Assembly (NCBI GenBank): GCA_944392595.1
Contig: CALXXD010000001.1
Location: 67,008 to 131,007 of the forward strand
DNA from: an uncultured Alphaproteobacteria bacterium
GTDB lineage: Bacteria; Pseudomonadota; Alphaproteobacteria; Rs-D84
Length of the DNA: 64,000 nt
Direction: 5' to 3'
This document shows, piece after piece, positions 4,263 through 39,804 of this stretch. Position numbers and translations under genes: made by a program. Every line of letters begins with the position of its first letter. The stretch's first letter is position 1. The notes beneath the pieces are model-generated. The model worked only from the letters and a program-made list of their open reading frames with translations, had not been told where the DNA came from and made no database searches.

Positions 4263-6431
4263 TTATTTTTTGATTTCGGCACCTGTTTTCTGGTCGATAC
4301 CAACCATAGACATACGTGTTTTACCACGCTTGTCGGCACCCAGATAGCGGACAAATACTTTGTCGCCTTCTTTGATTTTTGTGTCTTCGATTTTTGCGAT
4401 TCTGTCACCTGTGATTTCAGAAATATGAACCATGGATTCAAAACCGTTCAAAATCTTTACAAACAATCCGAAATCTTTGACCCCAGACACAACGCCCGGA
4501 TAAATCATGCCGACTTCGGGTTCAGCCACGATATCTTTGATACGTGCGATTGCTGCATCCGCGTTTTCGCGCGTTGTGGCCATGATTTTAACCGTTCCGT
4601 CATCTTCCAAGTCAATCTGGGTATCTGTTTCGCGCGTCAAAGCCTGGATAACAGAACCGCCTTTGCCGATAACATCGCGGACTTTTTCAGGATTGATTTT
4701 CATGGTATATAACTGGGGCGCGTATTCAGACACGTGATCACGTGGTGCCTTGATAGCCTTTTCAATTTTGCCCAAAATGTGCATACGACCATCGCGCGCC
4801 TGGGCCAGTGCATGTTCCATGATTTCAAATGTAATGGATGTGATTTTAATATCCATCTGTAATGCGGTAATACCCTGGTCGGTACCGGTTACTTTGAAAT
4901 CCATGTCGCCCAAGTGATCTTCATCGCCCAAAATATCGGTCAAGATGGCGTAATCATCGCCTTCTTTTATCAAGCCCATGGCGATACCCGCAACCGGACG
5001 AGTCAATGGCACACCGCCATCCATCATCGCCAACGTTGCGCCGCATGTTGTCGCCATCGACGAAGACCCATTCGATTCCAAAATATCGGACACTACGCGG
5101 ATAACATAGTCGAATTTTTCACGGCTGGGCACCATTGGATGCAACGCACGCCATGCCAGGTTACCGTGTCCAATTTCGCGACGCCCGGGGGATTTTAACC
5201 CTTTGCATTCGCCAACCGAATATCCCGGGAAATTATAATTCAATATAAAATCGCGTTCTTCTTCGCCATCCAGGCTTTCAATCGGCAAAGCATCTTTGCC
5301 GCCGCCCAATGTCAAAGACACCAACGCCTGGGTTTCGCCACGTGTGAATAACGCAGATCCATGTGCGCGTGGCAATACGCCCAATTCGATTTCAATCGGA
5401 CGAACTGTCTTTGTATCACGGCCGTCAATACGTGGTTTGCCGGCCAAGATATTGCCACGCATAATACGCGCAGTAATATTTTCAATAATTTCATCCGCCG
5501 CGGATTCCAACGTAGATGTGGCCACGGTTGTATCCGGGAACAATTCAGGAATGCGCGCCTTGGCCGCGACATGAATCTGGGCCAATGTATCCAAACGCGT
5601 TAATTTTTCCTTGATTTGCAGTGCTGATTCGATTTCAGCCGCGAAAGATTCGAAATCTTTTTCCATCGCGACATATTCAGCCGATTTTTCGGGCACAGCC
5701 CAGCGTTCTTTGCCGGCCGCATCCGTCAATTCGTTAATTGCACGGATAACATCCTGTTGCGCATCAAAACCGAATTTAACCGCGCCCAGAACCGTTTTTT
5801 CATCCAATTCGCCAATTTCTGATTCAACCATCAACACACCGTCTTTGGTCGCTGCAACAACCAAATCCATTTCAGAATCTTCCACCATACGTTTGGACGG
5901 ATTCAGGATATATTTCCCATCCGCATAACCAACACGCGCCGCGCCAATCGGGCCTGCGAACGGCACACCAGACAAAGACAACGCCGCAGATGCAGCAATC
6001 ATCGCCAAAATATCAGGCTGGTTTTTGCGGTCATACGAAAACACTTGGACAACAATTTGAACTTTGTTTTTGAATGTTTCCGGAAACAGCGGACGAATTG
6101 GGCGGTCAATCAAACGCGCAGTCAATGTTTCTGCGGTCGATGCCTTGCCCTCGCGCCGGTCACGCGAACCTGGGATACGGCCCGCAGACGCAAATTTTTC
6201 CTGGTAATCAACGGTTAATGGGAAAAAGTCTTGGCCTTCGACCGCGGTCTTTTCCGCACAGACCGTCGCCAAAACCATTGTTCCGCCCATTGTTGCCAAA
6301 ACTGCGCCGTTGGCCTGCTTGGCCATGCGACCTGTTTCCAGACGCAGTGTTTCATCACCATACGGGATTTCAACCGCAACTGGGTTATTCAAGTGAGTTT
6401 TTTCACCTTTGTTAAATAAACCAAATAACAT
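4263..6431 (-). CDS. pnp: Polyribonucleotide nucleotidyltransferase (PNPase)
   Basis: 722 residues from the ATG at 6431, chosen because GGAGAAAAAT lies just upstream; ATGs at 6443 and 6506 have no such site. It is a phosphorolytic 3'-5' exoribonuclease. Order of domains: first RNase PH core (MGGTMVLATVCAEK, DFFPLTVDYQEKFAS), helical linker, second RNase PH core (HGSALFTRGETQALVSLTLG, FNFPGYSVGE-type NYNFPGYSVGE, CGATLAMMDGGVPL, and DILGDEDHLGDMDFKVTGT), then KH (KVRDVIGKGGSVIQ) and S1 (GVVSGVKDFGLFVKIL). All are complete. rpsO, its common neighbour, is not present. Confidence 0.97.
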   Translation of the reverse strand: MLFGLFNKGEKTHLNNPVAVEIPYGDETLRLETGRMAKQANGAVLATMGGTMVLATVCAEKTAVEGQDFFPLTVDYQEKFASAGRIPGSRDRREGKASTAETLTARLIDRPIRPLFPETFKNKVQIVVQVFSYDRKNQPDILAMIAASAALSLSGVPFAGPIGAARVGYADGKYILNPSKRMVEDSEMDLVVAATKDGVLMVESEIGELDEKTVLGAVKFGFDAQQDVIRAINELTDAAGKERWAVPEKSAEYVAMEKDFESFAAEIESALQIKEKLTRLDTLAQIHVAAKARIPELFPDTTVATSTLESAADEIIENITARIMRGNILAGKPRIDGRDTKTVRPIEIELGVLPRAHGSALFTRGETQALVSLTLGGGKDALPIESLDGEEERDFILNYNFPGYSVGECKGLKSPGRREIGHGNLAWRALHPMVPSREKFDYVIRVVSDILESNGSSSMATTCGATLAMMDGGVPLTRPVAGIAMGLIKEGDDYAILTDILGDEDHLGDMDFKVTGTDQGITALQMDIKITSITFEIMEHALAQARDGRMHILGKIEKAIKAPRDHVSEYAPQLYTMKINPEKVRDVIGKGGSVIQALTRETDTQIDLEDDGTVKIMATTRENADAAIARIKDIVAEPEVGMIYPGVVSGVKDFGLFVKILNGFESMVHISEITGDRIAKIEDTKIKEGDKVFVRYLGADKRGKTRMSMVGIDQKTGAEIKK

Positions 6432-6463
6432 ATTTTTCTCCATGTTTTTTGTTACTGTTAAAC

Positions 6464-6538: not shown

Positions 6539-6583
6539 ATTATAATTCAAAATCAACCGGATGCAAATCTTTTCGTTAATCAA

Positions 6584-6607
6584 AAAAACGCCCAATTGGG
6601 CGTTTTT
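6584..6607. terminator. Terminator at the 3' end of infC
   Basis: AAAAACGCCC / GGGCGTTTTT with loop AATT, a perfect 10-bp stem. It overlaps the infC stop and lies between infC and pnp on the same strand. Confidence 0.8.
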
Positions 6608-7155
6608 TATTTCGCAGGTGCAATTATAATAGATTTCGTGCGTTCATCGGGCTTTGATTTTGATTCCAAAGTCCCACGATCGCCAATAATCTGGACAATA
6701 TGCGCAAACAATTCAGGCACGGCATCTTTGCCACGCGCCAAAACCCGTTTGTTACCACGTGTCATCACGGCGATTTTTACTTTGTTCCCTTCGTCCAAGA
6801 ATTCAAAAACTTTTTTCATTTTGATGTTCAAATCGTTTTCTTCGATAAACGGTTTGACCCAAACTTCTTTGATTCCGACGTTTTTCTGATTTTTTCTGGC
6901 CTCGGACGCGCGTTTTTTCTGCTCGTACTTGTACTTGCCAAAATCCATTATTTTAACAATCGGCGTTGTGCCATTTGAACTGATTTCAACCAAATCCAGC
7001 CCCGAATCCATCGCCATATTCAGCGCATCAGACGTCTGCATAACGCCCAAATTTTGGCCATTTTCATCAATTACCTGGACGGATTTAGCAAAAATCCGAT
7101 TATTTACGCGCGGGCCCGTATCCCGACGATTATCACGGTTAAATTGCGGTTTAAT
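6607..7155 (-). CDS. infC: Translation initiation factor IF-3 (AUU start)
   Basis: 182 residues when read from an ATT codon at 7153-7155. No in-frame ATG exists before codon 36, and starting there would remove most of the N-terminal domain. The ATT has AAAAGGAG six bases upstream and gives MKPQFNRDNRRDTGP, then RVNNRIFAKSVQVIDENGQN, the expected IF-3 N-terminus. The C-terminal domain (VKIMDFGKYKYEQKKR, DLNIKMKKVFEFLDEGNKVK, VMTRGNK) is complete. IF-3 discriminates against non-standard start codons, so an AUU start allows it to repress its own synthesis, as known in E. coli. It lies apart from rpmI-rplT, its usual partners, found at 39216-39804. Confidence 0.95.
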   Translation of the reverse strand: MKPQFNRDNRRDTGPRVNNRIFAKSVQVIDENGQNLGVMQTSDALNMAMDSGLDLVEISSNGTTPIVKIMDFGKYKYEQKKRASEARKNQKNVGIKEVWVKPFIEENDLNIKMKKVFEFLDEGNKVKIAVMTRGNKRVLARGKDAVPELFAHIVQIIGDRGTLESKSKPDERTKSIIIAPAK

Positions 7156-7193
7156 TGTATGCTCCTTTTGATATATTATGACGCAATTATTAT

Positions 7194-7967
7194 CTATTTA
7201 TCTGGCGAATTCAACAAATTTTGTACTGTTTGCAATGCGTTCCAAGCGTCCCTTTTGGCGGCCGGTTTTAACATCAAATAATTCGGATGATAAATCGGCA
7301 TTGCCGTCACACCATTTGCCAACACAGTCGTCATTCCATGCGCACGTGGTAATGTGGCACCAATTATTTCCGTCGCCGCCAATGTGCCCAGTGTCAAAAT
7401 AAATTTTGGATGCAAAAAATCCATAATCCTGTCCATAAATGGCCGCGCAAGTTTTAATTCATCCGCCGTCGGGGTGCGACCGCCGGGCGTGCGCCAAAAT
7501 ACCATTGGCACAATTGATACCCGTTCGCGCGACATGCCAATCGCCGCCAGCATTTTATCAAATAATTCGCCGGCCGCGCCCGATAAAATACGACCGCATT
7601 CATCATCGTCACCAGACGGAATATCTGTCACAACAACCAAACCATTTGGATTTTGCGCAATATGCGGCAAAACCACATTTGTTGCCCCACCCCGCAGCGG
7701 ATGATTAAATTCAGATATCATTCGCATCAAAGCATCAATGTTCCCCGGCCGCGCCGCCATCGCCACAGCCGTTTCAACGGATACGGCCTGTTGCGGTGCA
7801 ATTGGTGGCACAATTGCGGTCTGGGTTCGCGATTGCACACCAGATGCCGGCACATCGTCATTCGACACCGTCGCCGCACGTGCGGCCGCCGCCATTGCAG
7901 TTGGCATATCGGTCAATTCCCAACGCACGCCCGCCAATAATAAATCACGCAAGTCAAAATCGTTCAT
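7194..7967 (-). CDS. Uracil-DNA glycosylase superfamily protein, family 4-like without cluster cysteines
   Basis: 257 residues. The C-terminal 170 residues follow the family 4 UDG layout: ILSGAAGELFDKMLAAIGMS, VSIVPMVFWRTPGGRTPTADE, PKFILTLGTLAATEIIG, and the HPNYLM motif near the end in place of HPAYLLR. The first active-site block, usually GEAPGxxED, reads VTDIPSGDDDECGR and is altered. Only one cysteine remains where four normally bind [4Fe-4S]. The N-terminal 80 residues are alanine-rich and unrecognised. It may still bind uracil or abasic DNA, or have lost catalysis. Confidence 0.75.
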   Translation of the reverse strand: MNDFDLRDLLLAGVRWELTDMPTAMAAAARAATVSNDDVPASGVQSRTQTAIVPPIAPQQAVSVETAVAMAARPGNIDALMRMISEFNHPLRGGATNVVLPHIAQNPNGLVVVTDIPSGDDDECGRILSGAAGELFDKMLAAIGMSRERVSIVPMVFWRTPGGRTPTADELKLARPFMDRIMDFLHPKFILTLGTLAATEIIGATLPRAHGMTTVLANGVTAMPIYHPNYLMLKPAAKRDAWNALQTVQNLLNSPDK

Positions 7968-39215: not shown

Positions 39216-39584
39216 TTATTTAGCATCCGCGGCAGTAAATCGTTTTGCTGTTTCAACCAATTTTGCAAAGTTTGCATCGCCCGCATAGGCCATTTCGGCC
39301 AATACTTTGCGATCCAATGCAACACCGGCCCGTTTCAGACCATTCATGAATTGGCTGTATGTCATACCATTTGCACGCGCTGCGGCGTTGATACGCACAA
39401 TCCACAAACCACGAAATTCGCGTTTTTTCACACGACGATCGCGATATGCGTATTGTCCCGCTTTTTCAGTTTTTTCACGGGCGGCACGATATGTCGAATG
39501 ATGACGGCCCAGGTAACCCTTGGCACGTGCCAATATTTTATTGTGTTTTTGTTTTACGGTTGTACCGCGTTTAACCCTTGCCAT
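39216..39584 (-). CDS. rplT: 50S ribosomal protein bL20
   Basis: 122 residues, normal size. [60 protein letters not shown] and the [20 protein letters not shown]-terminal domain are clear. It is an early assembly protein that binds 23S rRNA. It is 16 bases after rpmI. Confidence 0.98.
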
Positions 39585-39600: not shown

Positions 39601-39804
39601 TTATTTCAAACCATACGGGGCCAAGATTTTCGCCTGTCCCTTCATGTTATCGTTCAAATACTGTGGTTTTGATCCAGCCTTGTTTGCACGCTTGGATTTA
39701 TTACGCAACAGTTTTTTGTGAGCATTTCTGGCAACGCGGATTTTACCGGTCGCAGTCATAGATGCGCGCTTTTTCAAGTACGACTTTGTCTTTAATTTTG
39801 GCAT
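39601..39804 (-). CDS. rpmI: 50S ribosomal protein bL35
   Basis: 67 residues from the ATG at 39804 (the open frame upstream has no family match). MPKLKTKSYLKKRASMTATG, RNAHKKLLRNKSKRANK and the end KILAPYGLK are typical. It pairs with rplT; infC, normally first in this operon, is at 6607 instead. Confidence 0.97.
   Translation of the reverse strand: MPKLKTKSYLKKRASMTATGKIRVARNAHKKLLRNKSKRANKAGSKPQYLNDNMKGQAKILAPYGLK

Follow-up and report, generated by a model that had tools for sequence, protein, structure and literature searches.

A non-AUG start codon for infC in an uncultured alphaproteobacterium and its relatives

Introduction

Where does translation of infC, the gene for initiation factor IF3, begin in an uncultured alphaproteobacterium in which the usual start codons are missing from the beginning of the gene? 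The gene lies in the window analyzed here, a 64,000-nt stretch of contig CALXXD010000001.1, in a draft genome of 977 kb that is 98.7% complete and held in 15 contigs. In Escherichia coli, IF3 discriminates against any start codon that is not AUG, GUG or UUG, and a shortage of IF3 increases the translation of infC, as described in passages of a published study (PMC5472188). An earlier note on the window had read an ATT as the start of infC and had regarded it as an enterobacterial autoregulatory device, surprisingly kept here after infC had left the rpmI-rplT operon.

Results

The infC reading frame

Read from the ATT at 7155-7153 on the minus strand, infC (6607..7155) encodes an IF3 of 182 aa, which is identified by the NCBIfam model TIGR00168 (171.2 bits, cut-off 60), by PF05198 (102.8 bits, the single match in its own genome) and by its relatives. 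Read directly on that strand, the sequence runs from an in-frame TAA (7200-7198) to CAAAAGGAGCATACA-ATT (7155-7153)-AAACCGCAATTT. No ATG, GTG or TTG occurs between this stop and the IF3 N-domain, and there is no table-11 start in frame from the ATT (7153..7155) back to the TAA. Two ATA codons (7179-7177 and 7176-7174) also fall within the open frame, both without a Shine-Dalgarno (SD) sequence. The ATT itself is preceded by the SD AAAAGGAG (7162..7169, minus strand) with a 6-nt spacer; within this SD, AAAGGAG is a 7-base match to the complement of the 16S rRNA 3' end; the anti-SD is present, as the organism's own 16S rRNA ends in GGATCACCTCCTT. In some relatives, such as L003, L007, L008 and L012, a stop codon lies immediately 5' of the SD.

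A mechanical open reading frame finder instead begins infC at the TTG of codon 36 (7048..7050, minus strand), yielding a frame of 147 aa (6607..7050) that is 35 residues short of that from the ATT. Because the IF3_N match (6898-7107) starts upstream of this TTG, the short form would truncate the domain. The ATT thus stands, as previously proposed, as the only start that gives a whole IF3 N-domain and has its SD six bases upstream, while the predicted automated clipping of 35 residues holds for a finder restricted to ATG, GTG and TTG. Folding of the infC 5' region, in search of a structured RNA where the gene begins, revealed no unusual RNA fold (z 0.44); an Rfam scan to the same end matched only tRNAs, and a promoter scan gave hits, none of which was tied to infC. 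In the initiator tRNA, AGG/CCU takes the place of the three G-C pairs in the stem, a feature that is usual among alphaproteobacteria.

Conservation of the start codon in the host family

Within the host family, we read infC in 50 genomes (its own, 29 fetched by search and 20 chosen across genera; 133 of 142 had a match) with a rule fixed for all loci, by which the start is the candidate codon with the best SD match 4-11 nt before it. Canonical-start counts obtained in this way are upper bounds, as some long open frames are called wrongly, for instance those of L230, L262 and L271, where a weak far-upstream hit outscores the conserved ATT. By this rule, the host-family starts are ATT in 43 loci, ATC in six and TTG in one, and 22 of the 49 loci with a closed frame contain no ATG, GTG or TTG before the domain. 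The lone TTG call, retained in the count, is that of L080 (contig C60 of genome G027), where infC sits at a contig end just behind a sequence resembling what we take to be an Illumina adapter tail; it looks like an assembly artefact and no real exception.

The pattern of divergence among the 33 host-family loci with the same spacing is that of an untranslated region followed by coding sequence. In the 30 nt before the ATT, loci differ pairwise at the first, second and third codon positions by.44/.53/.47, versus.23/.23/.51 (codons 2-16),.23/.20/.54 (codons 17-35) and.23/.18/.53 (codons 36-100). Coding constraint therefore begins at the ATT, which is where the alignment of the 5' region in relatives, suggested in the earlier note, places the onset of coding-type third-position divergence. 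The codon also does not behave as an ordinary isoleucine codon, given its low drift: it reads ATT in 32 of these 33 loci and ATC in the other, whereas six other well-conserved isoleucine codons of infC mix ATT, ATC and ATA. By parsimony on a tree of 49 host-family loci (ATT 43, ATC 6, ATA 0), the start codon changes four times, as compared with 10-18 changes at five internal isoleucine codons, in which all three codons are used. We found no relative in which codon 36 is an ATG serving as the true start, and no frameshift is needed, as the frame is common to the relatives and shows the usual codon periodicity from codon 2 onward; these were the two objections that had been anticipated. The reading of AUU as the start of infC is well supported. 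The nearest named relatives (L193-L198) are uncultured proteobacterial metagenome-assembled genomes, for some of which the titles give rumen or horse faeces as the source.

The genomic neighborhood of infC

Directly upstream of infC, separated by 38 nt, is a gene for a family-4-like uracil-DNA glycosylase (7194..7967, minus strand; TIGR00758 101.1 bits, under the cut-off of 125.3). This gene occupies the same position in 40 of the 50 host-family loci versus none of the 110 class loci sampled outside the family, and the two genes are likely co-transcribed. Just 3' of infC, a terminator-like ACGCCC-AATT-GGGCGT followed by a T run (6582..6603, minus strand) was seen directly and is missing from the listing of the promoter scan. 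The downstream neighbor is an ATG-started frame (4263..6443, minus strand) that we take, from its sequence, to be pnp. It adjoins infC in only 2 of the 50 host-family loci, with only three loci scorable, and pnp was dropped as a control gene.

Compared with the thrS-infC-rpmI-rplT arrangement kept by E. coli, the infC gene here follows a uracil-DNA glycosylase gene and is not followed by rpmI and rplT. The frame presumed to be rpmI, the E. coli operon partner of infC (39601..39804, minus strand), and rplT (39216..39584, minus strand; PF00453 145 bits) form a pair at 39804-39216, about 32 kb away, which bears out the earlier view that infC is unlinked from them. In none of the 50 host-family loci, 46 of which had over 900 nt to search, does rplT appear in the 2.5 kb that follow infC, whereas rplT lies downstream in 28 of the 110 class loci outside the family and in 16 of 16 non-alphaproteobacterial loci (some of the loci being short). 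Non-AUG infC starts are found both with and without rplT nearby, and both the separation of infC from rplT and the non-AUG start are class-wide.

Non-AUG infC starts outside the host family

Our class sample outside the host family consists of 110 genomes (30 plus 80 loci from the best-scoring matches listed; infC was matched in 368 of 385 genomes). Here, the infC starts are ATA in 55, ATC in 20 and ATT in 10 (85/110 non-AUG), with 16 canonical and 9 left uncalled by the rule, and 44 of the 110 loci offer no ATG, GTG or TTG before the domain. The same is true of 29 of 64 infC loci from named alphaproteobacteria (two being duplicate proteins of L064 and L072), in which the starts are ATA 37, ATT 14, ATC 5, CTG 2 and canonical 6. 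All 16 non-alphaproteobacterial loci are likewise non-AUG (ATC 7, ATA 4, ATT 4, CTG 1). With the same script, the control gene rplT starts with ATG in 29 of 31 loci and GTG in two, and since none of these 31 lacks a canonical start, the missing ATG, GTG and TTG in infC are not due to chance. The script also calls E. coli infC, our positive control, as ATT.

Along a tree built from the IF3 proteins of alphaproteobacteria (222 sequences), the identity of the start codon changes 56 times, versus a shuffled mean of 102.6. The same tree gives 18 switches between canonical and non-canonical starts, probably an overestimate in view of the wrong calls that the rule makes in some long frames. The non-AUG start appears to be dispensable, in that several class loci look like real reversions. 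Clear-looking reversions to ATG occur in L045, L086 and L105, all three from a single family whose genomes are larger, and in L127, L151 and L147; class genomes in which infC is seemingly back at ATG or TTG include L082, L137 and L244, several of these genomes being small.

A non-AUG infC start is therefore the rule in the Alphaproteobacteria sampled, with AUA being the commonest. A search of the open-access literature for infC starts in this class found no paper on point; one survey concerns, by its title, genes that prefer non-AUG starts and probably includes infC. In other bacteria, excerpts of published studies give an ATT start in Xanthomonas, by peptides (PMC5559785), ATC in Streptomyces (PMC5472188), AUA in Staphylococcus aureus by Ribo-Ret (PMC13009471), ATT in Listeria (PMC13068326) and AUU in Bacillus subtilis (PMC1805508). 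As far as these excerpts go, such cases share with ours the gene and the class of codon that IF3 rejects, with some of the starts mapped directly, but they lie outside the Alphaproteobacteria, where AUA predominates in our sample. The start described here belongs to an already known type, and the idea of an enterobacterial device surprisingly kept in this organism is too narrow in light of the 85 of 110 class genomes, the 16 non-alphaproteobacterial loci and the cases reported outside enterobacteria.

IF3 in the host family

Of 41 columns conserved among alphaproteobacterial IF3s, each host-family protein departs at 10-14 from the consensus of the other 168 sequences, whereas those 168 differ at no more than five (median 0). 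The RFRGRE signature is gone from the C-domain (6607-6900, minus strand, in the window) in the 50 aligned host-family members. R133, which is arginine in 168 of 168 other alphaproteobacterial sequences, is retained in only 5 of 50; E134 is lysine or arginine and R129 is methionine or tryptophan in all 50; and R116, which is not conserved across the class either, is glutamate in 49. Largely kept are R131 (R/K in 44/50), G132 (48/50) and K110 (50/50), and the alignment rows that we printed show extra residues after the RFRGRE site. A genome of the sister family (G421, locus L336) keeps RFRGREM and has an AUA infC start; this genome gave no match to the 790-loop pattern described below.

16S rRNA in the host family

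A pattern search for the 790 loop of 16S rRNA matched 37 of 142 host-family and 75 of 385 class genomes, those without a match being uninformative, as they may lack an assembled 16S rRNA or diverge further. A786-U796 is present in all 37 host-family matches and in two family members among the 75 class matches, while the remaining 73 class genomes have G786-C796. In the 14 host-family genomes for which both genes were read, A786-U796 always occurs with a non-AUG infC start (ATT 13, ATC 1).

We also aligned 30 host-family (L275-L304, with L294 being that of the organism itself) and 30 other class loci against E. coli rrsH. At 21 of 776 positions that are invariant elsewhere, the host family is fixed for a different base. 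With the pairing partners assumed here, several of the changes amount to swapped pairs that can still form: 786-796 (GC to AU), 1404-1497 in h44 (CG to UA), 1514-1521 and 1515-1520 in the stem of the h45 tetraloop (GC to CG), as well as 47-361, 53-358 and 1048-1209. At 1409-1491, too, the host family has an A-U pair, but so do four class loci. With limits of the IF3 site that were in part chosen after looking, 6 of the 21 changes fall at this site when counted by position (expected 2.06, P 0.012), versus 3 of 13 events when paired changes are merged (P 0.13, not significant); the IF3 site plus the top of h44 holds 8 of 21 positions (P 0.003) and 4 of 13 merged events (P 0.08). In the portions of the sources at hand, IF3 contacts h23, h24 and h45 (PMC3130014, PMC5187519), and the 790 loop and h44 are where mutations that raise non-canonical initiation are concentrated (PMC5187519). 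The coupling between IF3 and 16S rRNA is suggestive, a pattern and not proof of co-evolution, because the host-family 16S rRNA is divergent in general and, once paired changes are merged, the enrichment at the IF3 site falls short of significance.

The full-length host-family loci carry 21-26 private 16S rRNA changes, compared with 31, at positions that do not otherwise vary in the class sample, in L317 (genome G387, 0.6 Mb), of which only position 686 lies within the IF3 and h44 sites. Loss of KsgA, which modifies h45, was considered as a cause of the h45 changes and rejected, as ksgA is present. As for universal 16S primers, the host-family 16S rRNAs that cover the respective sites have one mismatch to 806R (30/30) and 1391R (28/28) and two to 785R (30/30) and 1492R (28/28). 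Given the mismatches to 806R, 785R and 1492R, amplicon surveys may under-count the family.

Discussion

Feedback by IF3 and the alternatives

We consider it very probable that translation of infC begins at an AUU preceded by a strong SD, with negative feedback by IF3 as in E. coli. The genes of the two organisms share an AUU followed by AAA and an upstream SD (GGAGG in E. coli), and the parts common to the two schemes are the AUU, a strong SD, the anti-SD in 16S rRNA and IF3. By homology, IF3 would repress its own translation through the AUU. It would destabilize 30S complexes formed at any codon but AUG, GUG or UUG, such that AUU initiation of infC would pass when IF3 is scarce and be shut off when it is abundant, a translational negative feedback in which the strong SD would set the basal rate. 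The selected property is most likely that of being a codon that IF3 rejects rather than AUU as such, because AUH and CUG starts persist class-wide regardless of operon context and because interchange among AUA, AUC and AUU is commoner than a shift to a canonical start. The host family holds AUU more tightly than the class, where these three codons interchange.

Unlike in E. coli, however, both the IF3 C-domain and its 16S rRNA site are altered here, and rejection of AUU cannot be assumed in the host family, because its IF3 is without RFRGRE and its 16S rRNA is changed at the 790 loop, h44 and h45. The AGG/CCU stem of the initiator tRNA, the ordinary fold of the infC 5' region and the apparent reversions in the class also weigh against the feedback reading. 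The AUU start could thus be real and only set a low, constant expression, with the feedback weakened or lost through this remodeling. Such an account would fit the 10-14 departures from the conserved IF3 columns and the altered pairs, two of the regions concerned being those in which, according to part of one study, mutations for non-canonical initiation cluster (PMC5187519). It sits less well with the third base of the start codon, which is more constrained than in other isoleucine codons, with the retention of R131, G132 and K110 in most or all members, and with the finding that no host-family locus is clearly at ATG, as expected if the codon still works. On balance, we judge the loss of feedback to be rather unlikely.

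We give very little weight to a true start elsewhere, at the TTG of codon 36 or an upstream ATA, with the ATT being an ordinary isoleucine codon. Although the TTG is the sole table-11 start within reach and the ATA codons are in frame, the former would cut the IF3_N domain and leave the coding constraint over codons 2-35 unaccounted for, a stop lies 4-5 codons 5' of the ATT in some relatives, and codon 1 is free of the drift seen at other isoleucine codons. That a canonical start is hidden by an assembly error or a frameshift is more improbable still: the assembly is a draft of 15 contigs, but the same arrangement is found in 49 of 50 host-family genomes.

Implications

The start reported here puts right the N-terminal end of an essential protein, and start callers limited to ATG, GTG and TTG will miscall infC in many of the genomes sampled. 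Among these genomes, the non-AUG infC start, mostly AUA, survives loss of the ribosomal-protein operon. The divergence of IF3 and the 30S subunit is a more interesting lead than the start codon itself. It is conceivable, if still doubtful, that IF3 and its 30S platform changed together in the host family, whose genomes are about 0.5-1.1 Mb, with the AUU start kept throughout. If so, the changed IF3 and the changed 30S contact pairs would provide a system for testing which contacts the rejection of non-AUG codons needs, and the host family would show, as an experiment of nature, whether discrimination among start codons can be re-established through other contacts.
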